A DNA stretch of 64,000 bases from Curtobacterium sp. MCJR17_055. Lineage in GTDB: Bacteria; Actinomycetota; Actinomycetes; Actinomycetales; Microbacteriaceae. The DNA lies in assembly GCF_003224335.1 (NCBI RefSeq), contig NZ_QKLF01000003.1, positions 372,001 through 436,000 on the forward strand, written 5' to 3'. Position numbers and translations under genes: made by a program. This document shows, piece by piece, positions 35,873-54,744 of the stretch. A model generated the notes under the pieces. The model was not told where the DNA came from and made no database searches. It saw nothing but the letters and a program-made list of their open reading frames with translations. How positions within the stretch are numbered: the stretch's first letter is position 1; each line of letters begins with the position of its first letter.

Positions 35873-36856
35873 CTACCGATCGGCGCTGGGTGCGCGGACG
35901 GCGGGCACGACCCCGAGCCCGTCGACGGCCGCGAGCACGTCCTCGGCGGCGACCGCGAGGATCGCCGGGTCCGGGTCCTCCGCGAAGACGTCACCGCGCC
36001 GGACCGATGCGTCGGTGAGGACCACGTGCGGGCCGGACGCGGGCGGGCCCCAGGCCTCGGGCGGAGCCGGACCGAACAGCACGACGGACGGGATCCCGTA
36101 GGCCGACGCCAGGTGCGCCGCTCCCGTGTCCACCGTGACGAGGAGGCTCGCTGCCGCCACGACCGCGGCGAACGGCTGCAGGTCGAGGCGGCCCGCGAGC
36201 ACCGCCGCGTCGTCCAGACCTGCCGATTCCGCGACGGCCAGTGCGCGCTCGACGTCGTCCGCGCCTCCCGTCAGCACGACCTGGTGGCCGCGCTCGACGA
36301 GCCCCCGCACCACGGCGGCGAAGCGGTCGACCGGCCAGTGCCGGGCGCCGTGGAAGGCGCCGACGTGCACGACCGCCGCGCCCTGGACGACGGCGGGGAC
36401 GGCCGGGACCGCGATCGTGACGTCGTCGGGGTCGGCGGGCATGCCGTGCGCGGTCATGAGACCCGCCCACCGCTCGCGCTCGTGCACGTCGTGCTGCCAC
36501 TCGGGCCCGTCGGGTGCGCCGTGCCCGATGACGCGGCGGGCCTGCAGCGCGTCGATGAGCTGCCCGGACTCCGGGCCGGCACCGTGCAGGTTCACCGCGA
36601 CGTCCACGACACCCGCTGGGACCGCGATCGGGTGGTCGAGGCCGTGCTGGGCGAGGTGCACGTCCACGTCGGGGACGAGCTCGACGACCGGCGCGAGCCA
36701 GGCCGTCGTCGCGAGCGTGATCCGGTGCCCGGGGAACGCCCGCCGGAGGGCGTGCAGCGCGGGGACGGCGACGAGCAGGTCGCCGAGCTTGATCGCACGG
36801 AGCACCACGAGCTCCGGGCGGCCGTCGGACGGGGGCAGGGTGGGAACGGCGGTCAC
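35873..36856 (-). CDS. GT9 glycosyltransferase (heptosyltransferase-type), copy 1
   Basis: GT-B enzyme of 327 aa in the ADP-heptose:LPS heptosyltransferase family. The N-terminal half has VVLRAIKLGDLLVAVPALHAL (GD-L motif); the C-terminal half has VVHVGAFHGARHWP, VVLTGGADD and VTVDTGAAHLASAYGIPSV, the donor-binding DTGxxH signature. The GTG at 36856 gives this start, with TAGCGT eight bases upstream (leaderless). It is divergent from the GmhB-like gene. In an organism without LPS the acceptor must be another glycan. It ends with the codons GAT CGG TAG, matching GT9 copy 2. Confidence 0.85.
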   Translation of the reverse strand: MTAVPTLPPSDGRPELVVLRAIKLGDLLVAVPALHALRRAFPGHRITLATTAWLAPVVELVPDVDVHLAQHGLDHPIAVPAGVVDVAVNLHGAGPESGQLIDALQARRVIGHGAPDGPEWQHDVHERERWAGLMTAHGMPADPDDVTIAVPAVPAVVQGAAVVHVGAFHGARHWPVDRFAAVVRGLVERGHQVVLTGGADDVERALAVAESAGLDDAAVLAGRLDLQPFAAVVAAASLLVTVDTGAAHLASAYGIPSVVLFGPAPPEAWGPPASGPHVVLTDASVRRGDVFAEDPDPAILAVAAEDVLAAVDGLGVVPAVRAPSADR

Positions 36857-36975
36857 GTGGCCCGACGCTACCGGGCGCCGACCGCCCCGTCCGCCACGCC
36901 CGGGGAGTTGTCCGCGGCGCGCCACCGGACAGCGCCCGGTTGGGCGAGCCCGGCGTCCGCCCGGTAGAGAGGGGT

Positions 36976-37524
36976 GTGGCCCTCTCCGACCGACCGCTGC
37001 GCGGCGTGCTCTTCGACCGTGACGACACCCTGGTGGTCGACGTCCCCTACAACGCGGACCCGGCCCTCGTCGTCCCGGTCCCCGGTGCCGCGCGCGCCGT
37101 CGCCGCGGCCCGGGCAGCGGGACTCGCGGTGGGCGTCGTCACGAACCAGTCGGTCATCGCGAAGGGCATGGCGACCCGCGAACAGGTCGACGCGACGAAC
37201 GCCCGGGTGGACGAGCTGGTCGGGCCGTTCGACGTGTGGGAGGTCTGCCCGCACGACCGCGCCGACGACTGTGCCTGCCGCAAGCCCCGCCCCGGCATGG
37301 TGCTCGCCGCGGCCGCACGGCTCGGCCTCGACCCGGCCGACCTCGTCGTCATCGGGGACATCGGCGCGGACGTCGGTGCCGCGGCCGCAGCGGGCGGGCA
37401 AGGCGTCCTCGTGCCCACCGCACGCACCCTGCCGGCCGAGGTCGACGGCGCGACCACCGTCGCCCGGACGATCGAGGAGGCGGTCGCACTCGTCGTCGCC
37501 CAGGCGGCACCGGTGACACCGTGA
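36976..37524 (+). CDS. HAD-IIIA phosphatase, D-glycero-D-manno-heptose 1,7-bisphosphate 7-phosphatase-like (GmhB)
   Basis: HAD-superfamily phosphatase of 182 aa. The nucleophile motif is FDRDDTLV (about residues 12-19), motif 2 is VVTNQS, and the zinc loop with CPHDRADDCACRKPRPGM (about 87-104) matches the GmhB Cys-x-His...Cys-x-Cys pattern followed by the catalytic Arg-Lys. Motif 4 is VIGDIGADVGAA. GmhB removes the 7-phosphate in heptose nucleotide synthesis; relatives act on histidinol phosphate or other sugar bisphosphates. The GTG at 36976 was chosen over the TTG at 36940 because TAGAGAGGGG precedes it. The stop overlaps the next GT9 start (GTGA). The presence of gmhA and hldE nearby supports the heptose role. 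Confidence 0.82.
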   Translation: MALSDRPLRGVLFDRDDTLVVDVPYNADPALVVPVPGAARAVAAARAAGLAVGVVTNQSVIAKGMATREQVDATNARVDELVGPFDVWEVCPHDRADDCACRKPRPGMVLAAAARLGLDPADLVVIGDIGADVGAAAAAGGQGVLVPTARTLPAEVDGATTVARTIEEAVALVVAQAAPVTP

Positions 37525-38663
37525 GCGCCGCGGACACCGTGCGTGCCGCGGACACCGTGGACACCGAGAGCGACCGGGACACCGGCGGTCGGCGGGTGCT
37601 CGTCGCCAGACTCGACTCCTTCGGCGACGTCCTGGTCGCCGGGCCGGCGGTCCGTGCCGTCGCGGCCGGCGCCGACCACGTGACGCTGCTGTGCGGCCCG
37701 CAGGGTGCCCCGGCCGGCGCGCTGCTGCCCGGGGTGGACACGCTCCGGGTGTGGGCGGCGCCGTGGGTCACGGAGACCGCCCGACCGCTCGACGACGGCG
37801 TCCTGGCCGAGTTCCGCGCCCTCGTCGACGCGGAACGCCCGGACGAGGCCGTGGTGCTGACGTCCTTCCACCAGTCCCCGCTGCCGCTCGCGATGCTGCT
37901 CCGGCTCGCCGGGGTGCCGCGGGTCTCCGGTGCGTCCGTCGACCACCCGGGCTCGCTGCTCGACGTCCGGCTCCGACCCGGGGAGGACCTGCCCGAGGAC
38001 GTCCCCGAACCCGAACGAGCGCTCCGCATCGCCGCGGCCGCGGGCTTCACCCTGCCCGAGGGCGACGACGGACTGCTCCGGGTCCGCGTCGGCGAGGACG
38101 TCGCGGTGCCCCCGGTGGTGGCCGCGCTGGAGCGGTACGTCGTCGTCCACCCCGGCGCCAGTGTGGAGGCGCGGTCCTGGCCGCCGTCCTCCCACCGGGC
38201 GCTCGTGGCGGAGTACGCCCGGCTCGGCGTCCCGGTGGTCGTCACCGGCTCGCCGGGCGAGCGGGAGCTGACCGCCGCGGTCGCCGGCAGCACCGGCATC
38301 GACCTCGGCGGTCGGACCAGCCCGGCCGAGCTGGCCGCCGTCCTCGCCGGCGCCGAGGTCGTCGTCGTCGGGAACACCGGGCCGGCCCACCTCGCCGCAG
38401 CGGTCGGGGCCCGGATCGTGAGTCTGTTCTCCCCCGTGGTCCCCGCCGTGAAGTGGGCGCCGTACGCGGCGCACGTGGAACTGCTCGGCGACCAGGGCGC
38501 GCCGTGCCGTCTCAGCCGGGCACGCGACTGCCCCGTGCCCGGCCACCCGTGTCTGGCCGGTGTCGGCGTCGACGACGTCCTCGCGGCCCACGAACGGCTC
38601 GTCGGGTGCGCTCTCCGGACGAACCAGGGGTCCCTGCGAACGCCGCCAGACGCCGATCGGTAG
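37521..38663 (+). CDS. GT9 glycosyltransferase (heptosyltransferase-type), copy 2
   Basis: 380-aa GT9 enzyme: LVARLDSFGDVLVAGPAVRAV at about 29-49, VVVHPGASVEARSWP near 210, and VVVVGNTGPAHLAAAVGARIV near 278 (the NTGPxH donor motif). The C-terminal CRLSRARDCPVPGHPCL has spaced cysteines seen in actinobacterial relatives. The first 25 residues are a repetitive Ala-Asp-Thr-Val stretch. It starts inside the stop of the GmhB-like gene (four-base overlap), so the phosphatase and this transferase are made together, which fits use of a heptosyl donor. Confidence 0.87.
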   Translation: MSAADTVRAADTVDTESDRDTGGRRVLVARLDSFGDVLVAGPAVRAVAAGADHVTLLCGPQGAPAGALLPGVDTLRVWAAPWVTETARPLDDGVLAEFRALVDAERPDEAVVLTSFHQSPLPLAMLLRLAGVPRVSGASVDHPGSLLDVRLRPGEDLPEDVPEPERALRIAAAAGFTLPEGDDGLLRVRVGEDVAVPPVVAALERYVVVHPGASVEARSWPPSSHRALVAEYARLGVPVVVTGSPGERELTAAVAGSTGIDLGGRTSPAELAAVLAGAEVVVVGNTGPAHLAAAVGARIVSLFSPVVPAVKWAPYAAHVELLGDQGAPCRLSRARDCPVPGHPCLAGVGVDDVLAAHERLVGCALRTNQGSLRTPPDADR

Positions 38664-38672
38664 CGTGCGGCA

Positions 38673-38711
38673 CTGCTGCTCCTCCTCCTCCTCCTTCTCC
38701 TCCTCCTCCTG
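38673..38711 (+). repeat. CTC trinucleotide tract in the leader of the next glycosyltransferase gene
   Basis: Thirteen triplets: CTG x2, CTC x5, CTT, CTC x4, CTG. It begins seven bases after TAGCGT (38661-38666), a -10-like box, so it would form the first 39 bases of the transcript. Each CCTCCT inside it equals the anti-Shine-Dalgarno end of 16S rRNA. Confidence 0.85.
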
Positions 38712-38736
38712 ATCGACAGCGACCGAAAGGCAGTGC

Positions 38737-39774
38737 ATGCGGATCCTCGTGTGGCACGTGCACGGCGGCTGGATGGACGCCTTCGTCCGCGGCCCGCACG
38801 AGTACCTCATCCCGACCACCCCGGAGCGTGACGGTTGGGGCCTCGGCCGTGGTGGCCGGGACTGGGGGACGAACGCCGTCGAGATCGCACCCGAAGACGT
38901 CGCCGACGCCGGCGTGGACCTGGTGGTCCTGCAGCGACCGGAGGAACTCGCGGTCGCGCAGCGGCTCCTCGGGCGGACGGACTTCCCGACCGTCTTCGTC
39001 GAGCACAACGCTCCACGCGTCGACGTACCCGACAGCCTGCACCCGTTCCGGGACCGGGACGACGTGACGATCGCGCACGTGACGCACTGGAACGCCCTGA
39101 TGTGGGACTGCGGCTCGACCCGGACCACCGTCGTCGAACACGGCGTCGTCGACCCCGGTGCTCTGTACACCGGCGAGCTCGAGCGCTTCGGCGCCGTCAT
39201 CAACGAGCCGGTCCGCCGCAACCGGGTCGTCGGCACCGACCTGCTCCCCCGCTTCGGTGCGGTCGCCCCGGTCGACGTCTTCGGCATGGGCACCGAGAAG
39301 CTCGCCGGACTCGGCCACGGCGACCTGCTCGTCGGGCTCGGGGACGTGAAGCCCGACCCGATGCACGCGGCCCTCGCGCAGCGCCGCGCGTACGTCCACG
39401 CGAACCGCTGGACCTCGCTCGGGCTGTCGCTCATCGAGTCGATGCACATGGCGATGCCGGTGCTCGTCCTCGCCACCACGGACGCGTCCCGCACGGTGCC
39501 CGCCGAGGCCGGTGCGATCGCGACGGACGTCGACGAGCTCGTCCGGGCCTCCCGGACGCTCCTCGAGGACCCGGACGAGGCGCGCCGACGCGGTCTCGTC
39601 GCCCGGGAGGCCGTGCTCGCGCGACACGCGCTGTCCCGCTTCACCGCGGACTGGGACGCCCTGCTCGACGACGTGCACACTGAGCACCACGCCCGGATGC
39701 GCACGCCGCGTCCGGAGCGGGAGACGGAGACCGCCGGAGCCGCAGCGCTGCCGGCCGGTGGGAGGAGCAGCTAG
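38737..39774 (+). CDS. Glycosyltransferase, GT-B fold (GT1/GT4-like)
   Basis: A 345-aa protein starting RILVWHVHGGWMDAF with a GT-B-like end: KPDPMHAALAQRRAYVHANRWTS is followed by LGLSLIESMHMAMPVLVL, corresponding to the donor-binding Glu region (SLIE) of GT4 enzymes. The N-terminal Rossmann half is divergent (HEYLIPTTPERDGWGLGRGG). GAAAGG precedes the ATG by five bases. Its stop TAG is followed at once by the ATG of the next gene. It appears to act with that GT4 enzyme on the locus glycan; donor and acceptor are unknown. Confidence 0.8.
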   Translation: MRILVWHVHGGWMDAFVRGPHEYLIPTTPERDGWGLGRGGRDWGTNAVEIAPEDVADAGVDLVVLQRPEELAVAQRLLGRTDFPTVFVEHNAPRVDVPDSLHPFRDRDDVTIAHVTHWNALMWDCGSTRTTVVEHGVVDPGALYTGELERFGAVINEPVRRNRVVGTDLLPRFGAVAPVDVFGMGTEKLAGLGHGDLLVGLGDVKPDPMHAALAQRRAYVHANRWTSLGLSLIESMHMAMPVLVLATTDASRTVPAEAGAIATDVDELVRASRTLLEDPDEARRRGLVAREAVLARHALSRFTADWDALLDDVHTEHHARMRTPRPERETETAGAAALPAGGRSS

Positions 39775-41043
39775 ATGCAGATCGCCATGGTCTCCGAGCA
39801 CGCGAGCCCGCTCGCGACGCTCGGCGGCGTCGACGCCGGCGGCCAGAACGTCCACGTCGCCGCCCTCTCCGCGGCCCTGGCCGACCGCGGCCACACGGTC
39901 ACGGTCTACACACGCCGCGACGACGCGGCCCTGCCCGTCCGTGTCACCCTCCGCCCCGGCGTGGACGTCGTGCACGTCGACGCCGGTCCCGCCGAGCACG
40001 TGCCGAAGGACGACCTGCTGCCCTACATGGGCACGTTCGCCCAGGTCCTGGCGTCCGAGTGGCTGTCCGAGCGCCCCGACGTGGTGCACGGGCACTTCTG
40101 GATGTCCGGGCACGCGGCCCTCGAGGCCGTCACCCAGGTGCAGCTGCGCACCGGTGAGCCGCGCATCCCCGTCGTCCAGACCTTCCACGCCCTCGGTGTC
40201 GTCAAGCGTCGGCACCAGGGTTCGGCGGACACCAGCCCGCCCGAGCGTGAGTGGCTCGAACCGGCCGTCGGCCGCGGTGCCGACCAGGTCGTCGCGACGT
40301 GCTCGGACGAGGCGTTCGAGCTGAAGACACTCGGCGTCCCCCTCCGCTCCATCTCGGTCGTGCCCTGCGGCGTCGACGTCGAGCTGTTCCGCCCGGACGG
40401 CCCCGTGGAGGAGCGCGGCCGGACCCACCGCGTCCTGACCGCCTCCCGGCTCGTGCAGCGCAAGGGCGTCGGCACGACCATCGCCGCCGTCGCCCGCCTG
40501 GTCGCCGAGGGTCGCGACGTCGAGCTCGTCGTCGTCGGCGGTGCCGGTGTCGCCGGGGCCGACCTGCCCGACGACCCCGAGTACCAGCGACTCGACTCCC
40601 TGGCCCGCGACCTCGGGATCCGCGACCACGTGTCCTTCCGCGGGCAGCTCGCGCAGGAGGAGATGGGGGCCGTGTACCGCAGCGCCGACGTCGTCGTCTG
40701 CGCGCCCTGGTACGAGCCGTTCGGCATCGTCCCGCTCGAGGCCATGGCGTGCGGCGTACCCGTCGTCGCCTCCCGCGTCGGCGGCCTCATCGACACCGTC
40801 GTCGAGGACGCCACCGGCCTGCACGTCGAGCCGCGCGACGAGGACGGCCTCGCGGTCGCGCTCGGCGGGCTGCTGGACGACCCGGAGCGCCGGACCGCCT
40901 ACGGGCACGCCGGTCGCCGCCGCGCCGAGGCCAAGTACACCTGGCAGAAGGTCGCCGCCGACACCCAGCGCGTGTACGAGCGCCTGGTCGCCGGCGGCCG
41001 CGTCGGAGCCACCGCACCCATCACCGAGAGGAACGCCCGATGA
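39775..41043 (+). CDS. Family 4 glycosyltransferase
   Basis: GT4 retaining glycosyltransferase of 422 aa. The N-terminus [18 protein letters not shown] holds the GGxxxG-type motif; [13 protein letters not shown] and VVQTFHALG follow. The C-terminal domain has [14 protein letters not shown], and the E(x7)E motif in [19 protein letters not shown] (about 325-343). It resembles the MshA/sucrose-phosphate synthase-like group. It is joined to gmhA by an ATGA overlap, tying it to heptose synthesis. Confidence 0.9.
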
Positions 41044-41681
41044 CCATCGAGCAGACCGGGATCGGCACGACCGAGTCCGGCACAGCCGGCCCCGCCGAGG
41101 GCACGAGCACGCGCGTCGTGCTCGACCACATCGCCGCGTCGGTGCCCGTCATCGCGTCGCTCGTCGACCACGGCGACCACATCGCGGCCTGGGCGGACGA
41201 CATCGCCGCCCGCCTGGTCGCCGGACGTCGGCTCCTCGCGGCGGGCAACGGCGGGTCCGCGGCCGAGGCGCAGCACCTGACTTCGGAGCTCACCGGCCGG
41301 TTCGACGGCGACCGCCCGGCGTACTCCGCGATCGCGCTGCACGCCGAGACCTCCGCCGTGACCGCCATCGGGAACGACTACGGCTTCGAGCAGGTGTTCG
41401 CCCGGCAGGTGCGCGCGCACGCCCGGGCCGGCGACGTCGTCGTCCTCCTCAGCACGAGCGGCAAGAGCCCGAACCTGCTCGCCGCCGCGGCCGCCGCTCG
41501 CGACGTCGGCGCCCGGTCCGTCGCCATGACCGGTCCCGTCCCGAACCCGCTCGCGAGCGCGGTCGACGACGTCATCGCCATCGACGGCCCGTCCGCCAAC
41601 GTGCAGGAGGCGCAGCTCGTCCTCGTGCACGCCCTCTGCCGCGCCATGGAGCCCGCGCTCCGCCGAGGAGGCACCCGATGA
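41040..41681 (+). CDS. gmhA: Sedoheptulose-7-phosphate isomerase (phosphoheptose isomerase)
   Basis: SIS-domain isomerase that converts sedoheptulose-7-phosphate to D-glycero-D-manno-heptose-7-phosphate. The GmhA signature [20 protein letters not shown] is at about residues 69-88, followed by [17 protein letters not shown] (catalytic region) and [14 protein letters not shown]. The C-terminal block [14 protein letters not shown] contains the zinc/catalytic His found in GmhA. 213 aa fits. Both ends overlap neighbours by ATGA. The first 25 residues are a Thr/Gly-rich extension. Confidence 0.93.
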
Positions 41682-43069
41682 CCGACCGTCAGCTCCGCAT
41701 CGTCGTCGTCGGCGACACCCTGCTCGACGTGGACGTCAGCGGCACGAGCGAACGGCTCAGTCCTGACGCCCCGGTGCCCGTGCTCGACGTCCGCTCGGAA
41801 CAGCGCCGGGCCGGTGGTGCCGGACTCGTCGCCACCATGCTCGCGAAGGACGGCCACGACGTCCGTCTCGTGACCGTGCTGGGCGACGACGCCCCCGCGG
41901 AGCGGCTGCGGTCGCTCCTGCCGGGCGTCACGATCGTCGAGGGCCCCTCCGGCGCACCGACCCCGGTGAAGACCCGGGTGCGCGTCGGGGACCACGCCCT
42001 CGTCCGCATCGACGAGGGGTGCGACACCCCGCCCGTCCCCGCGGTCACCGCTGAGATGCGTGCCGCGCTGGAGGACGCCGACGCCGTCGTCGTCGCCGAC
42101 TACGGTCGCGGGCTGACCGCCGCCGAGGACATGCGGTCGGCGCTCACCGCCGTCGCCGAGCGCACCCCGGTGGTCTGGGACCCGCACCCCAAGGGCGAGG
42201 CGCCCGTGGTCGGCGTCACCGTGGTCACCCCGAACGCGAGCGAGGCGCAGCGCTTCACCGGGCTCGGCGGCACCGGGGTCGCGTTCGCCACCGACGCCGC
42301 CGCCGACCTCGTCGCCCGGTGGGCGGCGCACGCCGTCGCCGTGACCATGGGCGAACGCGGCGCGCTCGTCGGCCGTCGCACCGAGCGCGGCCTCGACTCC
42401 CGGTTCGTCCCGGCACCCTCCGTCACCGCCGGCGACCCCTGCGGTGCCGGTGACCGTCTCGCCGCCGGCGTCGCCGTCGCGCTCGCCTCGGGCGCGGAGA
42501 TCGCTGACGCGGTCACCGCCGGGGTCGCCGACGCCTCCACGTACCTCGCGGCCGGCGGCGTCGCCTCGCTCGTCGCGGGCGCACCACCCGCACCGATCGC
42601 GGTGCCGGGCGCCGACCGGGACGCCCTCCGGGTCGTGCACGACGTCCGGGCCGCGGGCGGCGTCGTCGTCGCGACCGGCGGTTGCTTCGACCTGCTGCAC
42701 GCCGGGCACGCCCGCACCCTGTCCGCTGCCCGCGCCCTCGGTGACTGCCTGGTCGTCTGCCTGAACTCCGACGAGTCGGTCCGCGGACTGAAGGGTCCGG
42801 ACCGCCCGATCATGGGGCAGGACGACCGCGTGGAGCTCCTCCTCGCGCTCGACTGCGTCGACGCCGTCGTCGTGTTCGACGAGTCGACCCCCGACGAGGC
42901 TCTCCGTCGCTTCAAGCCGGACGTCTGGGCGAAGGGCGGCGACTACACGGCCGACGAACTCCCCGAGTCGGTCACCCTCGCCGAGTGGGGCGGCCGGGTC
43001 GTCACCGTCCCGTTCCACCCGGGCCGCTCCACCACCCGCCTGGCCGCCGCGATCGAACGCGTCGGCTGA
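41678..43069 (+). CDS. hldE: HldE-type bifunctional heptose-7-phosphate kinase / heptose-1-phosphate nucleotidyltransferase, copy A
   Basis: 463 aa with two domains. Residues 1-310 are a PfkB kinase: VVVGDTLLDVDVSG at the start, AGGAGLVATMLAKDG, and the anion-hole/base motif SVTAGDPCGAGDRLAAG (about 248-264). Residues 325-463 are a cytidylyltransferase-fold domain: TGGCFDLLHAGHARTLS (HxGH near 341) and the RfaE2-like NSDESVRGLKGPDRPI and VWAKGGDYTADELPE. This architecture equals E. coli HldE, which makes ADP-D-glycero-beta-D-manno-heptose. It is coupled to gmhA. The kinase half is more divergent than the C-terminal half, so a different heptose or nucleotide is possible. Confidence 0.88.
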   Translation: MTDRQLRIVVVGDTLLDVDVSGTSERLSPDAPVPVLDVRSEQRRAGGAGLVATMLAKDGHDVRLVTVLGDDAPAERLRSLLPGVTIVEGPSGAPTPVKTRVRVGDHALVRIDEGCDTPPVPAVTAEMRAALEDADAVVVADYGRGLTAAEDMRSALTAVAERTPVVWDPHPKGEAPVVGVTVVTPNASEAQRFTGLGGTGVAFATDAAADLVARWAAHAVAVTMGERGALVGRRTERGLDSRFVPAPSVTAGDPCGAGDRLAAGVAVALASGAEIADAVTAGVADASTYLAAGGVASLVAGAPPAPIAVPGADRDALRVVHDVRAAGGVVVATGGCFDLLHAGHARTLSAARALGDCLVVCLNSDESVRGLKGPDRPIMGQDDRVELLLALDCVDAVVVFDESTPDEALRRFKPDVWAKGGDYTADELPESVTLAEWGGRVVTVPFHPGRSTTRLAAAIERVG

Positions 43070-43118
43070 GCCCCCGCTCTCCACCTCACGACCGCAGCAC
43101 CAGAACCGAAGGACATCC

Positions 43119-43823
43119 ATGCCCGTCCCCACCACCCCCATCGGCCGCGTCCTCGTCACCGGCGGCGCCTCCGGACTCGGCGCGGCCGTCGTCGCCGCCG
43201 TCACCGAGGCCGGCGGTACCCCGATCGTCCTCGACCTCCGGATCGACGCGGTCCCCGAGGGCGTCGACGCCGTCGCCGTGGACGTCTCGGACACCGACGC
43301 CGTCGAACGCGCCGTCACGGAAGCGGTCGAGCGCCACGGGGGCCTCGACGCCGTCGTGACCGCCGCGGGCATCGACACCCCGGCCCCGATCGACGCGATC
43401 TCCTCCGGCAACTGGGAGAAGATCGTCGGCGTCAACCTGATCGGCACCGCGTCGACCGTCCGTGCCGCCCTGCCCGCGCTCGAGGCCTCGCACGGCCGCG
43501 TCGTGACGATCTCGTCGTCGCTCGCCCTGCGCGGCGTCGGCCACGGCACCGCCTACTCCGCGTCGAAGTTCGGCGTCCGCGGGTTCTCGCAGGCCCTCGC
43601 CGCCGAGACCGCGGGCCGCATCGGTGTCACGAACGTGATCCCGGCGGGCATGCGCACGAACTTCTTCGCCGACCGCACCGAGCAGTACAAGCCGGGTCCG
43701 GACGCGCAGCTCATCGAGCCGGAGTACGTCGCGAACTCGATCATCTTCGCCCTCTCCCAGCCGGCCGGTTGCGAGATCCGCGAGCTGTCGATCATGCCGG
43801 CGACCGAGCCCAGCTGGCCCTGA
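43119..43823 (+). CDS. Short-chain dehydrogenase/reductase
   Basis: Classical SDR of 234 aa: LVTGGASGLGAAVV (TGxxxGxG, about 12-25), AAGID (NAAG equivalent), TISSSLALRG and YSASKFGVRG (YxxxK, Tyr about 147). GAAGGA precedes the ATG by six bases; it lies 49 bases after hldE on the same strand and a strong terminator follows. It is too short and of the wrong type to be an HldD epimerase. A role in tailoring the heptose or another sugar of the locus is inference. Confidence 0.87.
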   Translation: MPVPTTPIGRVLVTGGASGLGAAVVAAVTEAGGTPIVLDLRIDAVPEGVDAVAVDVSDTDAVERAVTEAVERHGGLDAVVTAAGIDTPAPIDAISSGNWEKIVGVNLIGTASTVRAALPALEASHGRVVTISSSLALRGVGHGTAYSASKFGVRGFSQALAAETAGRIGVTNVIPAGMRTNFFADRTEQYKPGPDAQLIEPEYVANSIIFALSQPAGCEIRELSIMPATEPSWP

Positions 43824-43838
43824 CCGTCGCACGCGCCT

Positions 43839-43886
43839 GACGGACGGGAGGCCCGGTACCAGCTGGTACCGGGCCTCCCGTCCGTC
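43839..43886. terminator. 22-bp perfect hairpin, GGACGGGAGGC family
   Basis: Left arm 43839-43860 (contains GGACGGGAGGCCCGGTACC), loop AGCT, right arm 43865-43886. It separates the convergent SDR and GT9 copy 3 genes and would stop transcription from both sides. Confidence 0.88.
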
Positions 43887-43914
43887 TGCGGTGGCGCCGC
43901 GCGGGCGCGACCGC

Positions 43915-45015
43915 TCAGGTCGTGGCCAGCAGGTCCTCGACGTCGGCCAGCACTCGGTCCGGCGTGACCTCGTCGACGAAGGACGGGTCGTGCTCGCAGC
44001 GCTCGGCGCTCCACCCCACCTGGGTGACGTCGACGTCGCACACCGGGCAACGGGTGACGAAGCTCATGAGCACGCGGTGCCGGCCGCGGTCGAGCGGACC
44101 GGCGTTGATGACGTTGCCGAACCAGAAGACGCCCACGGTCGGCGTGCCGACGGCGACCGCGAGGTGCCGGGGACCGGAGTCGTCACCGACCATGACGTCG
44201 GCCGCGGCGAGCACTGCGGGGAGCTCCCGCAGGGGCAGCGCGGCGGTCAGGTCGTGCAGCCGTGCGGCGACCTCCGGCCCGACCGCCTCGGACACGGACG
44301 CCCGGATGCTCGTCGCGGCCGGTCGGTCGGAGTCGTCGCCCACGAGCACGACGTCGTCGCCTGCCTCGAGCCGGGCGATCGCCACCGCGGCGAAGCGCTC
44401 GGGGCTCCACCGGCGGCGCGGGTCGGTCGCGCCCGGGTGCATCGCGACCAGGCGGCCCCGTACCCCGAGTCGGTCCCGGACCGCGGCGCGCTCGTCGGCA
44501 CCGACGACGATCCTCGGGTCCAGGGTGACCGGTTCGGCACCGGCCAGCCCGACGACCTCGAGCGCGCGCAGCACCTCGTGCTGGTAGTAGACGTAGCGCA
44601 CCCAGCGCTCGGTCGGGGTGGCGTCCTCGGTGGCGGTGCCGACCGAGTGCGCGGCGCCGAGGCGGAGCAGGAACGGGTTCGAGTTGCGCCCGCCGCCGTG
44701 TAGTTGGACGGCGAGGTCGAACCGGCCGGTGAGCCGGGCGAAGAAGTCCTCGAGGTCCGGTGCCCCGTCACCGCCGTCACGCACACCGGGCGAGACGGGC
44801 AGTTCCTCGACGGCGTGCACGGCGTCCGTGCGCCCCGGCAGGAGCGCCGCCGCCATCGGGGTCCCGAGCAGCGTCAGGCGGGCCTCCGGGTACGCGGCCG
44901 CGAGGGCCTCGATCGCGGGCATCGCGAACATCAGGTCGCCGAGTCCCCCACCGCGGAGCACCGCGATCTCGCGGACCCCCTCGAACCGTTCGCCGCCACG
45001 TCCGATCTGCACCAC
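43915..45015 (-). CDS. GT9 glycosyltransferase (heptosyltransferase-type), copy 3
   Basis: 366 aa. IAVLRGGGLGDLMFAMPAIEAL is at about 17-38, then VQLHGGGRNSNPF, VAMHPGATDPRRRWSPERF near 196, and MVGDDSGPRHLAVAVGTPTVG near 281 (the D-SGPxH donor motif). The end has RCPVCDVD and RCEHDPSF, spaced cysteines and histidine that could bind a metal. A GTG-GTG start at 45015 has GAGGAGG about nine bases upstream. It is divergent from the aldehyde dehydrogenase gene and completes the set of three GT9 enzymes flanking the heptose genes. Confidence 0.86.
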   Translation of the reverse strand: MVQIGRGGERFEGVREIAVLRGGGLGDLMFAMPAIEALAAAYPEARLTLLGTPMAAALLPGRTDAVHAVEELPVSPGVRDGGDGAPDLEDFFARLTGRFDLAVQLHGGGRNSNPFLLRLGAAHSVGTATEDATPTERWVRYVYYQHEVLRALEVVGLAGAEPVTLDPRIVVGADERAAVRDRLGVRGRLVAMHPGATDPRRRWSPERFAAVAIARLEAGDDVVLVGDDSDRPAATSIRASVSEAVGPEVAARLHDLTAALPLRELPAVLAAADVMVGDDSGPRHLAVAVGTPTVGVFWFGNVINAGPLDRGRHRVLMSFVTRCPVCDVDVTQVGWSAERCEHDPSFVDEVTPDRVLADVEDLLATT

Positions 45016-45231
45016 GCCCGTCGTCCTCCTCGTGTCCGACGCGGCGGGTCGTCCGACCGCATCCCTTCGTTCCTACCCGGCCGCGGTCGGGCCGGTGTGC
45101 AGCAGCCCTGCAGCGGCGCTCGGCGCTGCGTCCCGTGGACACACCCACGCATCCCCCGGGCGTGTCCAGCGGAGAAGGAGCAGCGTGGAGGGGCCGGTGC
45201 CACGACGCCGGACCACCACGAGAGGACGCAC

Positions 45232-46740
45232 ATGACGCTCGATGCCCCCACCACCACCGCCCCGTCGACGGACGACCCGTCCGCGGACACGATCACGGTG
45301 CTCGACCCCGTGACCGGCGAGGTGGCCTCGGAGACCCGCCGGAGCACGGCGGACGAGGTGCGCGACGCGGTCGCGCGTGCGCGGGCGGCGGCGACGGGAT
45401 GGGCCCGGACCGCTCCCGGTGAGCGCGGCGCGGTCCTCCGCGCCGCGGCCGAGCGGCTCCGCGAGCACGCCGACGAGCTCGCCGCGATGAACACCCGCGA
45501 GACCGGCAAGGTCCCGGGCGACGCCCTCGGCGGCGTCGAGGCCGGCATCGACACGCTCATCCAGTACGCCGAGCTCGGCCCGCTGCACCGGGGCGAGGCG
45601 CTCCGCGGGAACCACGGCGCCGCCGACTTCGCCGTCCCGCACCCGCGCGGCGTCGTGCTCGCGCTGACGCCGTGGAACGACCCGGTCGCCGTCGCGTGCG
45701 GGATCCTCGGAGCGGCGATCGTCGCCGGCAACACGGTCGTGCACAAGGGCAGCGAGCGGAGCCCGGGCACGATCGCGCTCCTGAACCGCCTGCTCGCCGC
45801 CGAGCTCCCCGAGGGCGTGCTCGTGGGCGTCGACGGCGACGCGACGACCGGTGAGCAGCTCCTCGCCGAGGACGGCATCGCGGTGTACGCGCACGTCGGC
45901 TCGACGGCGACGGGCGACCGCCTGGCCGAGGCCGCGCTCCGCACCCGCGCGCACGTGATCCGCGAGAACGGTGGCAACGACGCCGCGGTCGTGGACGCCG
46001 ACGTCGACCCGGTGTGGGCGGCGGAACAGGTCGCCCTCGGTGCCTTCGCGAACACCGGACAGATCTGCACGAGCGTGGAGCGCGTCTACGTGCACCGCGA
46101 CATCGCCGATGAGTTCACCGCCGCCCTGGTGCGCGCCGCGGAGCGGAAGACCGCCTCGGCTGCCGCCGACTTCGGTCCCCTCGTCGACGAGCGTCTGCGC
46201 ACGACCGTCCAGGAGCACGTCGACCAGGCCGTCGATGCCGGCGCACGGGTGCTGACGGGCGGCTCGGTGCCGGAGGGCGCCGGCACGTTCTACCCCGCGA
46301 CCGTCCTCACCGACTGCACCGACGACATGCTCGTGCTCACCGAGGAGACCTTCGGTCCGATCGCCCCGCTCCGCGTCGTGGACGACATGGCCGAGGGGCT
46401 CCGCCTGGCCGCCGAGGACCGGTACGGCCTGGCCGCGACCGTCCTGACCGGCGACACCGCGACCGCGCTCCGTGCCGCCGCGGAGCTGCCCGTCGGCACC
46501 GTGAAGATCAACGCCGTGTTCGGCGGCGCACCGGGCGGCAGCGCCGAGCCCCGCGGCGCCTCCGGCTCCGGCTTCGGCTACGGCCCGCACCTGCTCGACG
46601 AGATGACGACCACCACGGTCGTGCACCTCGAGGCCGCCCCGCGTCGGACGAGCGGCACCGCCGGCACCGCCGACGCCGTCGACCCGGCGACCGCGGGCAG
46701 CCACGACACCGACACCGCCACCGCCGAGGACGTCCGATGA
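45232..46740 (+). CDS. Aldehyde dehydrogenase family protein, in the heptose locus
   Basis: NAD(P)-dependent aldehyde dehydrogenase of 502 aa. Catalytic Cys is in FANTGQICTSVERVYV (about residue 268), the general-base Glu in VIRENGGNDAA (about 245), and TPWNDPVAVACG (Asn, about 149) matches the TPWNxP motif. The last 40 residues are a Thr/Ala-rich tail. AGAGGA lies five bases before the ATG. Its stop overlaps the second hldE gene by four bases. The substrate might be a sugar aldehyde of this pathway or lactaldehyde-like; inference only. Confidence 0.87.
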   Translation: MTLDAPTTTAPSTDDPSADTITVLDPVTGEVASETRRSTADEVRDAVARARAAATGWARTAPGERGAVLRAAAERLREHADELAAMNTRETGKVPGDALGGVEAGIDTLIQYAELGPLHRGEALRGNHGAADFAVPHPRGVVLALTPWNDPVAVACGILGAAIVAGNTVVHKGSERSPGTIALLNRLLAAELPEGVLVGVDGDATTGEQLLAEDGIAVYAHVGSTATGDRLAEAALRTRAHVIRENGGNDAAVVDADVDPVWAAEQVALGAFANTGQICTSVERVYVHRDIADEFTAALVRAAERKTASAAADFGPLVDERLRTTVQEHVDQAVDAGARVLTGGSVPEGAGTFYPATVLTDCTDDMLVLTEETFGPIAPLRVVDDMAEGLRLAAEDRYGLAATVLTGDTATALRAAAELPVGTVKINAVFGGAPGGSAEPRGASGSGFGYGPHLLDEMTTTTVVHLEAAPRRTSGTAGTADAVDPATAGSHDTDTATAEDVR

Positions 46741-48347
46741 GCGCCGACGTCCGTTCGGTCCGTCGCGTCGTCGACGCGGTCGCGGCGCAGGAGCCCGTCG
46801 TCGTGGTGGTCGGGGACGTCATCCTCGACCGCTGGACGGTCGGTGCCGCCGAACGGGTCTCGCGCGAGGCCCCCGCGCCCGTCGTCCGGGTCACCGAGAC
46901 CATCGCCGTCCCGGGAGGCGCGGCGAACACCGCGGTCAACGCCCGCGCCCTGGGTGCGCGCGTCCGCATGGTCGCCCTGATCGGCGACGACGAGACCGGG
47001 CGGGTCCTGCGTGACCGGCTCGAGGCCGCCGGGGTGGACACGCGCTGGCTCGTCGCGGTCCCGGGTGCGACGACCACCTGCAAGGACCGCATCGTCGGGG
47101 GTGACCGTGTCGTCGTCCGGGTCGACGACCTGGCCGGACCGCCGAGTGCGGCGGACACGGCCCTCCTCGCCGAGGCGACGGCGGCAGCCGTGCGCGGCAC
47201 CGCGTCCGGGGACGCCCCCGGGACGGCGACCGACGCCCGTGCGGACACGGTCGTCGTCTGCGACTACGACCTCGGCGTCGACGCCACCGCCATCGTGCCG
47301 GTCCTCGGACAGGACCGCCCCATGACCGTCGTCGTGGACGCCCACGACCTCAGCCGCTGGCAGACCCTTCGTCCGGACCTCGTCACGCCGAACGCCGGCG
47401 AGGCCGCCGCGCTGCTCGGCCGCGACCTCGGGCAGGGCGCCGACCGGGCCACGACCGTGGTCGCCGCACGCGACGAGGTCCTCGCCGTCACCGGCGCGCG
47501 CAACGCGGTCGTCACGCTCGACCGCAACGGGACGGTGCTGCTCGAGGCCGCCGGCGCGGACAGCACGCTGTCGGACGTGCACCGCACGCGTGCCACGCCG
47601 GCGTCCGAGCAGCAGGCGTCCGGCGCCGGCGACACGTTCTGCGCCGCGGCCTCGGTCGCCCTCGCCGTCGGGACCCCGGTCCGCGAGGCCGTCTCCTTCG
47701 CCCAGGCGGCTGCCGACGTCGTGGTGCGCGAGGCCGGGACCTCGGTCTGCACGGCCGATGCGCTCGTGGCCTCGGTGTCCGCACCGGCCGAGACCGTCGT
47801 CGACCACGACGAACTCGCCGCCGCCGTCGAGGAGGCCCGTCGCACCGGGCGCCGCATCGTGTTCACGAACGGCTGCTTCGACGTCGTCCACCGCGGGCAC
47901 ACCACGTACCTCCGCCAGGCGAGCGAGCTCGGCGACCTGCTCGTCGTCGCACTGAACGACGACGACTCGGTCCGTCGACTGAAGGGTCCGGAGCGGCCGA
48001 TCAACACCGCCGAGGACCGCGCCGGCGTCCTCGCCGCGCTGGCCTGCGTCGACCTGGTGACGGTGTTCGCGACCGACACCCCGATCCCGCTCATCGAGCG
48101 CATCCGGCCGGACGTCTACGTCAAGGGCGGCGACTACTCCCCCGAGATGCTCAGCGAGACCGAGGTCGTGCGGGCCCACGGCGGCGAGGTCGTCATGGTC
48201 GACTACGTCGCCGAGCACTCGACGAGCGCCGTCGTCCGTCGCATCCGTGAGACCGCCGCCGGAACCGGCACCGCCGCCGGAACCGGCACCGCCGCCGGCA
48301 CCGGCGCGCCGACGGGAGAAGCGACCGCCGTGTCCGGGGACGCATGA
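46737..48347 (+). CDS. hldE: HldE-type bifunctional heptose-7-phosphate kinase / heptose-1-phosphate nucleotidyltransferase, copy B
   Basis: 536 aa. PfkB-type kinase in the first 345 residues: VVVGDVILDRWTVGAAERVS, PGGAANTAVNARALG, and EQQASGAGDTFCAAAS (GAGD near 300). The nucleotidyltransferase follows at 370-500: FTNGCFDVVHRGHTTYL (HRGH), NDDDSVRRLKGPERPINTAEDR and YVKGGDYSPEMLSETEVV. It is closer to the E. coli HldE pattern than copy A. An insertion of about 20 residues (GTASGDAPGTATDARA) lies in the kinase, and the C-terminus carries three TAAGTG repeats. Starts and ends with ATGA overlaps to the aldehyde dehydrogenase and GT2 genes. Confidence 0.88.
   Translation: MSADVRSVRRVVDAVAAQEPVVVVVGDVILDRWTVGAAERVSREAPAPVVRVTETIAVPGGAANTAVNARALGARVRMVALIGDDETGRVLRDRLEAAGVDTRWLVAVPGATTTCKDRIVGGDRVVVRVDDLAGPPSAADTALLAEATAAAVRGTASGDAPGTATDARADTVVVCDYDLGVDATAIVPVLGQDRPMTVVVDAHDLSRWQTLRPDLVTPNAGEAAALLGRDLGQGADRATTVVAARDEVLAVTGARNAVVTLDRNGTVLLEAAGADSTLSDVHRTRATPASEQQASGAGDTFCAAASVALAVGTPVREAVSFAQAAADVVVREAGTSVCTADALVASVSAPAETVVDHDELAAAVEEARRTGRRIVFTNGCFDVVHRGHTTYLRQASELGDLLVVALNDDDSVRRLKGPERPINTAEDRAGVLAALACVDLVTVFATDTPIPLIERIRPDVYVKGGDYSPEMLSETEVVRAHGGEVVMVDYVAEHSTSAVVRRIRETAAGTGTAAGTGTAAGTGAPTGEATAVSGDA
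48252..48305 (+). repeat. Three 18-bp tandem repeats inside hldE copy B
   Basis: ACCGCCGCCGGAACCGGC at 48252-48269 and 48270-48287, and a copy with one change at 48288-48305. They encode TAAGTG three times in the extreme C-terminus, past the catalytic domain. Confidence 0.9.
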
Positions 48348-49261
48348 CGCGCGGGGCACGGTGGTCCGGCGAGTGGGGTCGCCCGACCGCGGACCCGGCG
48401 GTGGAGAGCACCCCGGTCGACGTCGACGTCCTCGTCCCGACCGTCGGGCGCACGGCGGAGCTCGCCGCGACCCTCGCCGGCCTGGCGGCCCAGACCGACG
48501 TCGCCTTCCGTCTCGTGCTCAGCGACCAGTCCGCGACGGGTGACGCCGCCGCGCAGCCGGCGATCGCCGCCATGGTCCGCGTCCTGGAGGCCCAGGGCCG
48601 GCCCGTCACGCTGCTCACCCACCCGGAGCGGCGCGGACTCGCCGAGCACCGGCACTTCCTGCTCGCGCACGCCACCGCGGACGCCGTCCTGTTCCTCGAC
48701 GACGACGTCTGGCTGGAACCCGGGTCCGTGCACCGGATGCTCGACGCCCTGCGCTCGCTCGGCACCGGCTTCGTCGGGAGCGCGGTCCAGGGGCTGTCGT
48801 ACCTCGAGGACCGCCGTCCGCACGAGACGGCACCGTTCGCGCTGTGGGACGGCCCGGTCGTCCCCGAGGTGGTGCGCCGCGGCACGCCCGGGTTCGACCG
48901 CTGGTCCCTGCACAACGCCGCGAACCTGGTCCACGTCGCGGCCGAGCTCGACGTCGAGCCGGGCGGCTGGTTGCCGTACCGCGTCGCGTGGGTCGGCGCC
49001 TGCGCAATGTACGACCGGGCCGCGCTCGAGGCGGTCGGCGGCTTCGGGTTCTGGGAGACCCTGCCGATCGGACACGCGGGCGAGGACGTGGTCGTCCAGT
49101 GGCGGGTGATGGAGCGCTTCGGCGGCGCCGGCATCGTGCCGTCCGGGGCCGTGCACCTCGAGGCCCCGACCACGGTGACGGACCGCTCCGTCGACGCGCC
49201 GGACGTGGTCTTCGCGCACGAAGCGCACCAGCAGCACGCGGATCAGCACCCGGGCACCTGA
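48344..49261 (+). CDS. Family 2 glycosyltransferase
   Basis: GT-A type enzyme of 305 aa: VDVLVPTVGRTAELAATLAGL (about 26-46), the metal-binding DxD region in AVLFLDDDVWLEPGSV (about 112-127), and HAGEDVVVQWRVMERFG (ED acid plus QxxRW-like position, about 245-261). No membrane helices are evident, so it is cytoplasmic. It is coupled to hldE copy B by an ATGA overlap and is the last gene of the aldehyde dehydrogenase-hldE-GT2 operon. Donor and acceptor are unknown. Confidence 0.85.
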   Translation: MTRGARWSGEWGRPTADPAVESTPVDVDVLVPTVGRTAELAATLAGLAAQTDVAFRLVLSDQSATGDAAAQPAIAAMVRVLEAQGRPVTLLTHPERRGLAEHRHFLLAHATADAVLFLDDDVWLEPGSVHRMLDALRSLGTGFVGSAVQGLSYLEDRRPHETAPFALWDGPVVPEVVRRGTPGFDRWSLHNAANLVHVAAELDVEPGGWLPYRVAWVGACAMYDRAALEAVGGFGFWETLPIGHAGEDVVVQWRVMERFGGAGIVPSGAVHLEAPTTVTDRSVDAPDVVFAHEAHQQHADQHPGT

Positions 49262-52670: not shown

Positions 52671-54623
52671 CTAACCCGTCGCCCCGCGGACGAAGGCACG
52701 GGCGAAGGTCCACGGTGCGTCGGTCACGCCCGAGCACATGTACGTGGGGATCGACGGGGTGCACGGCTGGTCGCGAGTGACCTCCCACCATGCGAGCACC
52801 TCGATCCCGTGCGCGACGGACCAGCGGGCGAGGTCCTCGGCGTCCGTCCGTGTGAACACCTCCCCGGTGTCGTTGCGGCCGATCATCGGGGTGATGCCGA
52901 TCGCCGACAGCCGCTCCTGGGCCGTCCACCCGGCGTACGCGGGCACCGAGGCGAGCTGCGCGGCGGTCGACGTCGCAGCGTCCTGCGCCGCCGTCGCCAT
53001 GCGCTGCGGACCGGTGCCGTAGTCCATCGCCATGACGTTCACCGCCGCGATCCGGACCCCCGCAGCCGCCAGCCCGGCGACCGCGGCGAGGCCCTCGCGG
53101 GTGAGTCCGGTCGGCATCACGGGGAGGGTCAGCGACACCTCGAGACTGCGGCCCTTCGCCGCCTGGGCCCGGACGACCCCGGCGACCGCCACGGCGCGAC
53201 GCTCGTTCGCAGCCGTGTCGGACAGCGCAGCGCCCTCGATGTCCAGGTCGATGCGGTCGACGCCGAACCGGTCGACCACCTGCTGGTAGGCCGCCTGCAG
53301 CTCCGCCGGGTCCGTGCACCGCAGCGCGAGCTCGTCGTTGACCGCGCCGCCGAACGACACGACCACCCGACCGCCGGTCTGCTGGAACGCGGCGATGTTC
53401 CCCGCGAAGTCCTGCGGGCCGCCGATCCGGTAGGCGTCGAAGCCGGCCCATGCGGGCGTGCAGGGGCTGCCGCCGTTGTCCGAGACGATGAAGGCGAGCG
53501 TGAATGCGCGGACGCCGGTCGCGGCCGCGGAGCTCCGGAGATCGGCGGTCGGCCAGAGGCCCATGTCGACGTACGGTGCGACCAGCGTGTCACCGACGTG
53601 CGGCGCGGGGAGCGGCATCGGAGCCGGCGCGGCCGGGGTCGGGACCTGGGTCGGTACCGGTGCCGGTGCCGGTACGGTCGGGCTGGGTGTCGGGGTCGGC
53701 GCGGACCCGGGCCCTGCCGTCGGGTCGGACTCGCTCGCGACCGTGCAGGCGACGTCCCGGCCCGCGGGGAGTCCCACGATGCTGCAGCCCGTCGGCACCC
53801 GGCCCCCGCCGGGGGTCGAGATCGAGGTCAACCCGAAGGACGTCGCGGCGCTCGGGTCGAGGCCCCTGGCCCAGGACGGAGCGGTCGCGGTGAAGCCGTC
53901 GCTCGTGGTCGTCGCGGTGGCGTCCCAGATCTCGGCGACGCGCGCGGCGTACACGAACCGCACCTGCCAGGGGTCGAGGCGGACGGACGACCGGTTCGTG
54001 ACGGTCACCGAGGACTGGGAGCCGGACGGCCACGCGTCGACGGTGCGCCAGCCGACGACGACGGAGCCGTCCTTGTGCGCGACGGGCGGTCCCGCGGTCG
54101 GCGTCGGAGTCGTCGAGGGCGTCGGGACCGGTGCCGCCGTCGGCACCGGGGTCGGGCCTCCCGTGCCGGGTGTCGCGGGACCGCCGTTCACCGAGCAGGG
54201 CACCGACGCCCCGACGACGGTGCACGCCGTGGGGACGCGCTTCGCGCCGGACACCTTGCGCGAGTCGACCCGGAACGTCGCCCGACCACCCGCGGCGAGG
54301 TCGACGCGTCGGGTGGGACCGGCGACGGTGAACGACCGGCTCGTGCTCGCGACCTTGCGGGCGTCGCGGATCACCACGGCCTTCGACTCGTACGACAGCA
54401 GGACACGCCACCCGCGCAGCTTCGCGGAGCCGCCGTTCGCGACCGTGACCGTGGAGCGGAAGCCGGTGCGCCAGCTCGACGTGTTCTCCCACGTGACGTC
54501 CACCCGGGCGGCGGTACCGGCGGCAGCCGACGTCACGCCGGGCACGGCGACGACCGCAGTGCTCACCACCGCGAGGAGGAGCGCTGCGGGCAGCACCTTC
54601 CGGAACCCTGAGCGCAGACGCAT
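52671..54623 (-). CDS. Secreted GH18 chitinase with two CBM2-type carbohydrate-binding modules
   Basis: 650 aa: signal peptide (RLRSGFRKVLPAALLLAVVS, cleaved near ASAAA-like GVTSAAAG), first CBM2-like module (about 38-140, VDVTWENTSSWRTGF), Pro/Thr linker, second CBM2-like module (about 175-285, VVVGWRTVDAWPSGS), a longer Pro/Ala/Thr linker, then a GH18 barrel (about 340-650). The catalytic motif is RIDLDIEG (about 457-464, a DxxDxDxE relative) with VNVMAMDYG and EVLAWWEVTRD later. It probably degrades chitin or related polymers outside the cell. The ATG at 54623 has GGGAGG eight bases upstream; a start at 54677 would precede that site. Confidence 0.87.
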   Translation of the reverse strand: MRLRSGFRKVLPAALLLAVVSTAVVAVPGVTSAAAGTAARVDVTWENTSSWRTGFRSTVTVANGGSAKLRGWRVLLSYESKAVVIRDARKVASTSRSFTVAGPTRRVDLAAGGRATFRVDSRKVSGAKRVPTACTVVGASVPCSVNGGPATPGTGGPTPVPTAAPVPTPSTTPTPTAGPPVAHKDGSVVVGWRTVDAWPSGSQSSVTVTNRSSVRLDPWQVRFVYAARVAEIWDATATTTSDGFTATAPSWARGLDPSAATSFGLTSISTPGGGRVPTGCSIVGLPAGRDVACTVASESDPTAGPGSAPTPTPSPTVPAPAPVPTQVPTPAAPAPMPLPAPHVGDTLVAPYVDMGLWPTADLRSSAAATGVRAFTLAFIVSDNGGSPCTPAWAGFDAYRIGGPQDFAGNIAAFQQTGGRVVVSFGGAVNDELALRCTDPAELQAAYQQVVDRFGVDRIDLDIEGAALSDTAANERRAVAVAGVVRAQAAKGRSLEVSLTLPVMPTGLTREGLAAVAGLAAAGVRIAAVNVMAMDYGTGPQRMATAAQDAATSTAAQLASVPAYAGWTAQERLSAIGITPMIGRNDTGEVFTRTDAEDLARWSVAHGIEVLAWWEVTRDQPCTPSIPTYMCSGVTDAPWTFARAFVRGATG

Positions 54624-54744
54624 CGCGGTCGCCTCCCGTCGGAGCGTGTCGGTCCCCCTGCGGGCCGACGTCTTCACCCGGGGGTATCGGCGGCTCGTCG
54701 CGGCTCGTCAGTGTCGGGGACGGTCCTCCACCGGAACCGGGGTG

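Follow-up and report, generated by a model that had tools for sequence, protein, structure and literature searches.

Why would a monoderm actinobacterium carry the sugar-activating enzymes that serve the inner-core heptose of lipopolysaccharide (LPS)? The question is raised by a locus of twelve genes in Curtobacterium sp. MCJR17_055, at positions 35873-49261 of the 64,000-nucleotide stretch of DNA analysed here (the window). The genes encode, in order, GT9a (minus strand), GmhB, GT9b, GTx, GT4, GmhA, HldE1, a short-chain dehydrogenase/reductase (SDR), GT9c (minus strand), an aldehyde dehydrogenase (ALDH), HldE2 and GT2; a PRC-barrel gene flanks the locus on one side and an NAD/FAD oxidoreductase gene on the other. 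The gene set, its order and its distribution are solid. Judged by homology and gene order, the locus appears to be a Micrococcales variant of the cwg kind and not a new kind, its core being already known as the cwg operon. It is probably a stress-responsive operon of cwg type for a heptose-containing envelope glycan, in Micrococcales variant form.

Predicted heptose activation in a genome without LpxC

The four steps from sedoheptulose-7-phosphate to a nucleoside diphosphate (NDP)-heptose all appear to be encoded, on the evidence of homology and active-site residues: phosphoheptose isomerase (GmhA), heptose-7-phosphate kinase, heptose-bisphosphate phosphatase (GmhB) and heptose-1-phosphate nucleotidyltransferase are all present, with active sites kept at the sequence level. 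For the residue checks the window enzymes were aligned with the corresponding Escherichia coli proteins. The GmhA-type isomerase (41040-41681, plus strand; SIS domain, PF13580) matches solved phosphoheptose isomerases and keeps the metal-site His, Glu, Gln and His, invariant in 15 of 15 rows, which we take to be H61, E65, Q172 and H180. The GmhB-like phosphatase of the HAD class (36976-37524, plus strand) scores 102 bits against PRK08942, below the cut-off of 178, and keeps the aspartate motif and the Cys/His loop of E. coli GmhB. HldE1 (41678-43069, plus strand) and HldE2 (46737-48347, plus strand) are each predicted to combine heptose kinase and nucleotidyltransferase, and both keep GAGD and HxGH. 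Both domains of HldE1 are matched; its profile, compared with solved structures, finds a heptose-7-phosphate kinase and an HldC-like transferase, the latter of Burkholderia type. HldE2 reaches 199.5 bits against TIGR02199 (cut-off 181.5).

Three heptosyltransferase-type GT9 enzymes accompany these steps, and they are the only PF01075 (GT9) matches in the 3.29-Mb genome: GT9a (35873-36856, minus strand, start codon uncertain; 87 bits), GT9b (37521-38663, plus strand; 69 bits) and GT9c (43915-45015, minus strand; 72 bits). All three keep the catalytic Asp in the alignment, which we take to be D13 of WaaC. The initial annotation had counted three GT9 genes within 36976-49261; three do stand at the locus, but only two lie inside that interval, GT9a being just outside it. 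The structure search against WaaC and WaaF that it proposed gave a clear likeness for GT9c, the one GT9 whose fold was modelled: the model (pLDDT, the predicted local distance difference test, 89.9) matches WaaF with Z 33.3 (2.4 A over 310), WaaC with 28.2 and TibC with 22.0, while among the other rows plant NDH subunits reach Z 23-25 and the next after those, an unrelated glycosyltransferase, 13.9.

The rest of the gene content had been described correctly. A GmhB-like enzyme, GmhA, two HldE, a GT2 and two GT1/GT4-type enzymes were expected in one locus, and profile matches find them all, the last pair being a GT4 and a second enzyme of GT4 fold. The MshA-like GT4 (39775-41043, plus strand) lies below the MshA cut-off; GTx (38737-39774, plus strand) has weak GT4 Pfam matches, and its model matches BshA with Z 25.4 (3.0 A over 302); GT2 (48344-49261, plus strand) scores 56 bits against PF00535. 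The many four-base overlaps reported earlier occur at five junctions (GmhB/GT9b, GT4/GmhA, GmhA/HldE1, ALDH/HldE2 and HldE2/GT2), and the GTx and GT4 genes abut. Two further members of the locus had gone unmentioned: the SDR (43119-43823, plus strand; family match) and the ALDH (45232-46740, plus strand; PF00171, 371 bits), for both of which roles are presumed. An attempt to name the SDR substrate through PDB relatives was dropped, the best 60 of 638 being generic SDRs only.

The LPS inner-core pathway (GmhA, HldE, GmhB, HldD, WaaC and WaaF) shares the same four activation steps, the GT9 fold and the residues. In contrast to that pathway, the window genome has neither LpxC nor an HldD equivalog, and the acceptors must differ. 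LpxC gave 0 matches in this genome and a match in 4 of 14 control genomes, in agreement with the earlier remark that LPS genes are absent. For the L,D-epimerase HldD nothing exceeds the cut-off, the best of 7 matches in the genome reaching 105 bits against 274.6, so D-glycero-D-manno-heptose is the likelier sugar of the locus. Since the four heptose steps and GT9 enzymes occur together without LpxC, the most plausible product is a glycan that contains heptose and is either secreted or part of the envelope. To that extent the glycan suggested in the initial annotation stands; it is not peculiar to this genome or to host-associated strains, as the distribution described below makes plain.

The cwg operon and the spread of the locus

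The cwg operon of Streptomyces coelicolor (SCO6179-6190) was reportedly described by Hong et al. in 2002. In the available portions of later papers, it appears as a 12-gene predicted wall-glycan operon that is vancomycin-induced and partly SigE-dependent (PMC6767563); SCO6186 (cwgH) is annotated as a phosphoheptose isomerase and SCO6187 (cwgI) as a bifunctional synthase/transferase (PMC5839063); and cwgA is also salt-responsive, being induced (PMC13011467). Within the openly licensed literature searched, as far as its text was available, no published link of cwg to heptose was found.

The published S. coelicolor cwg promoter was searched for in 392 genomes from a single genus (that of G528), which we take to be Streptomyces, and gave one exact match (L198) and six with one or two mismatches. 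Downstream of it, GmhB, GT9b, GTx, GT4, GmhA, HldE1 and GT9a follow in that order in five of the seven loci (L198, L199, L208, L209 and L210), the GT9b and HldE1 matches of L208 each being in two pieces; L211 is too short for its gene order to be judged. At L198 a polysaccharide deacetylase gene diverges from the promoter, as published for SCO6178, and the promoter spacing is 147 bp, also as published. An epimerase, a carbamoyltransferase and a GT2 come next; two GT2 genes follow the GT9a orthologue, and the genes total twelve. Identities of the L198 products to window GmhB, GT9b, GTx, GT4, GmhA, HldE1 and GT9a are 60, 57, 51, 53, 62, 49 and 45%. Because the same gene order stands behind the published promoter in five of seven loci, the window core is read as the core of the cwg operon, its genes apparently corresponding to cwgD-J. 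GT9a would be the cwgJ orthologue by order, and it is 44-45% identical to the GT9 downstream of HldE1 in the five loci.

Seven orthologues, 45-62% identical, and a link to a stress sigma factor thus unite the two systems, and the order from GmhB to HldE1 is the same. They differ at the edges: window GT9a is inverted and lies upstream, and the leading epimerase, carbamoyltransferase and GT2 of cwg and its two trailing GT2 genes are missing (none flank the window core), whereas the SDR, GT9c, ALDH, HldE2 and another GT2 are found in the window and not in cwg. Relatives in the Micrococcales, moreover, have promoters of SigB/F type instead of the SigE type of cwg.

The survey of Microbacteriaceae proposed earlier shows that the locus recurs. 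The TIGR02199 profile, run over 199 family genomes (own included), exceeds its cut-off in 31; 26 of these have another match, of 178 bits or more, which lies no further than about 31 kb from the first in 25 genomes and far away in G132. GT9 is found in 32 of 32 HldE genomes (the 31 and G185) vs 0 of 19 without, the 19 having been hand-picked among genomes without a full HldE, and each of the 32 has a GmhA-type match somewhere. All twelve genes are present in 11 of the 20 family loci fetched, and the seven-gene core stands in order in 13. The locus is more than a chance assembly, because its gene order recurs in other genera and GT9 tracks HldE in 51 of 51 family genomes tested.

Beyond the family, an HldE1 scan of named genomes gave 573 confirmed loci, and the best 80 of these (with HldE1 in 80 of 80 by construction) come from Microbacteriaceae, Micrococcaceae, Brevibacterium, Aeromicrobium, Pseudonocardiaceae and others. 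Among the best 80, the nearest named HldE1 relatives belong to Curtobacterium species (74-82%); the seven core genes stand in order on one strand in 74, and all twelve genes are present in 27. At E <= 1e-60, HldE1-type matches occur in 50 of 297 order genomes (own included) and in 44 of 396 phylum genomes (own included), 13 of the 44 being below about 320 bits or partial and possibly other HldE. Twenty phylum loci, hand-picked from 30 matches above 440 bits with the window genome left out, have GmhB and GT9b in 19, GmhA in 19, GT4 in 19, SDR in 18, GT9a in 18 and GTx in 16; seven core genes are in order in 11 and six (without the SDR) in 13. GT9c, HldE2 and GT2 are found in 0 of these 20 and ALDH in 1. 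As the core is found in many parts of the phylum, to a large extent in soil genera, a reading of the locus as a mark of this genome or of a host-associated way of life is not upheld.

The near absence of the second-module genes from the phylum loci points to an old core and an added module. The old core would comprise GmhB-GT9b-GTx-GT4-GmhA-HldE1 with GT9a, usually with the SDR outside Streptomyces; many Micrococcales, and a few others, appear to have joined to it a second module (GT9c-ALDH-HldE2-GT2) that brought its own HldE, of another lineage. Judged by record name and contig coordinates, the family and named sets appear to share three genomes or more (L024/L061, L030/L102 and L039/L063). 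Some loci end early, and absences near their ends are uncertain; the lack of HldE1 in L037 simply reflects the position of that copy, some 18 kb off. Row L038 is left out of A3, and L034, with its kinase-only HldE1, is not in A2.

Two HldE lineages and a stress sigma factor

In the tree HldE1 and HldE2 are two distinct clades (support 100/100 for both), and midpoint rooting places E. coli HldE on the side of HldE2; the idea of an in-place HldE duplication was dropped because of these clades. The residue before S-T-T is Arg in 102 of 115 HldE1 (8 unparsed) and in 21 of 84 HldE2 (51 have His; 3 unparsed). Window HldE1, with FHPGRSTT, fits the STTR5 motif (F/L)xxGRSTT, and window HldE2 has His. 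The STTR5 Arg is tied, in the available text of two papers, to the use of CTP and UTP besides ATP, without being strictly needed (PMC11573728, PMC11461863). The pathway had been called ADP-heptose-type: the four steps to NDP-heptose hold by homology and residues, but the nucleotide need not be ADP, as HldE1 carries the STTR5-type Arg, which the two papers, both commentaries, connect with the production of ADP-, CDP- and UDP-heptose.

Natural losses suggest that both HldE serve one shared pathway. G053 (L142, 11592-12437) and G179 (L034, about 10723-11709) retain only the kinase domain of HldE1 and a full HldE2; G125 and G008 have lost HldE1 and GmhA from the locus, and GmhB, SDR, ALDH and HldE2 stay; the loci of G068 and G132 hold little but GT9a, GT9c, HldE2 and GT2 (G132 also GTx). 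That HldE2 might act on another sugar, since some loci lack GmhA, was considered and dropped, as a GmhA-type match is present somewhere in all 32 HldE genomes; the idea is further weakened in that G132 and G185 have a heptose locus of another kind.

Tridomain NDP-heptose synthetases of actinobacteria are said to have been described by Tang et al. in 2022. The fused GmhA-HldE1 of L184 belongs to the HldE1 clade, a likeness to these synthetases and to the septacidin and hygromycin heptose genes; window GmhA and HldE1, in contrast, are separate overlapping genes inside a glycosyltransferase operon. GmhA and HldE are fused in 2 of 115 neighbour pairs scanned (L184 and L141). In L141 (G185:C8:143000-158000, about 6.2-8.0 kb) a GmhA domain is fused to an HldC-type transferase, and its neighbours are a kinase of HldA type and a weakly matching GT9. 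Here, in a genus belonging to the same family, the heptose genes are arranged in another way. G132, whose cwg-type locus is without HldE1, has a further heptose locus at L139 (G132:C1:405000-419900, about 6.2-9.3 kb); it holds GmhB, GmhA and an HldE grouping with E. coli HldE.

A gene for a SigB/SigF-type sigma factor stands beside the cluster in 61 of 100 loci; four members were checked, and their top-scoring family is SigBFG, whose cut-off of 234.35 they narrowly miss with 199.5-229.5 bits. The motif GTTT-N13-18-GGG(A/T)A(C/T), which we take to be the class recognised by SigB/SigF-type factors, was scored in the 71 loci with a divergent GT9a/GmhB gap and occurs in 38 of these gaps, where its density in those loci would predict 1.35; it faces GmhB in 37 of the 38. 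In 13 loci the motif points at GT9c in the GT9c/ALDH gap. Among the 91 loci with GmhB, it lies upstream of that gene in 47 of 61 with the sigma gene vs 3 of 30 without, and begins 27-87 bp ahead of the projected GmhB start. The association spans many genera, although related loci make the motif and sigma counts non-independent and inflate them. The neighbouring sigma factor probably drives the operon in most of these genera, Curtobacterium excepted. Of the 20 more distant loci, 4 (L181, L187, L189 and L190) also have SigB/F-like sigma matches (40-42%, 145-164 bits) in the 17.5 kb retrieved around their core.

For the window such control was dropped: its GT9a/GmhB gap (36857-36975), a motif site in other genera, has no motif; none is found in the window or in the scored Curtobacterium loci, and no close orthologue of the sigma factor is found in four Curtobacterium genomes (28% at best), vs 5 of 6 other genomes compared that have one. 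The operon must therefore be driven otherwise there. Read by eye, Curtobacterium gaps (window 36857-36975 and 45016-45231; loci L025 and L052-L062) have in common a CCGGTAG-like element, which precedes GmhB and also, on the minus strand, GT9c; it may be a promoter that takes the place of the SigB/F type.

Two features lie further along the window. A UbiA prenyltransferase gene adjoins a flavin amine oxidase/desaturase-type gene at 56004-58330, possibly part of a carotenoid cluster, and a protein encoded at 52671-54677 (minus strand) has a cellulose-binding CBM2 domain and a weak GH18 chitinase match.

Weighing the envelope glycan and its meaning

Several observations weigh against a stress-responsive operon for a heptose-containing envelope glycan. 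The locus encodes no exporter, lipid-carrier starter or ligase, and the cwg epimerase and carbamoyltransferase are not part of it. The window is without the SigB/F motif and the sigma orthologue; a strict pattern finds 27 SigE-like sites in it, none before the first genes, but this pattern says little, since it fails on the published cwg promoter itself. Of the NCBIfam equivalog cut-offs most are not reached, the HldE2 transferase domain being the sole pass, and the HldE1 kinase motif reads GGAGL, its Leu replacing the Asn found in E. coli HldE and HldE2 (GGAAN). Nor does the heptose part seem indispensable, since in L200 (G998) only a GT4 and a 38-bit GmhB match follow the cwg promoter and HldE1 is nowhere in the genome, and the HldE1 match of G981 is broken across two reading frames.

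The lack of an exporter, together with the match of all twelve products to soluble enzyme families, would also suit a cytosolic heptose oligosaccharide or small glycoside, such as a stress protectant or specialised metabolite. GT4 and GTx do resemble MshA/BshA-type enzymes that make small glycosides, and NDP-heptose feeds antibiotics such as septacidin in Streptomyces. This product is nevertheless unlikely: export enzymes for envelope glycans are often encoded elsewhere, and the solved relatives of the three GT9 act on LPS core or protein acceptors. The cwg operon is, in the text available, induced by a wall antibiotic via an envelope-stress sigma factor (PMC6767563).

The missed cut-offs and the GGAGL motif could mean that the heptose-like enzymes now act on another sugar phosphate and that no heptose is made. 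Such a change is highly improbable given four consecutive steps and GT9 all together, the invariant metal site of GmhA, the GmhA-type match in every HldE genome of the family, and the losses in G053, G179, G125 and G008, which look as if both HldE serve one pathway. Least credible of all is that HldE1 and HldE2 are one recent, redundant duplication of no biological meaning; the two are kept side by side and single-copy losses in several genomes suggest partial redundancy, but their clades are separate, E. coli HldE groups on the HldE2 side, and their motif residues differ.

An envelope glycan is thus retained as the favoured product: the enzymes would make NDP-heptose, feeding a stress-induced, heptose-containing glycan. 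A wider proposal is tentative and rather doubtful, namely that actinobacteria widely make a D-glycero-D-manno-heptose envelope glycan induced by the stress sigma factor of each lineage (SigE in Streptomyces, SigB/F-type in Micrococcales), with HldE1 of Micrococcales supplying CDP- or UDP-heptose and HldE2 ADP-heptose for different GT9 enzymes. If true, this two-donor glycan would be for monoderms what the heptose core of LPS is for Gram-negatives, and would supply the missing product of cwg. That operon was discovered as a SigE target two decades ago, and the available portions of the literature describe it only as a predicted cell-wall glycan operon. Once cwg is tied to a complete NDP-heptose pathway, with its gene order kept in many actinobacteria and with links to different stress sigma factors, bacteria that lack LPS are predicted to make a heptose glycan under stress. 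NDP-heptoses are, in the part of the source available, strong agonists of vertebrate ALPK1 (PMC11573728), and many soil and plant actinobacteria may therefore be unrecognised producers of them.

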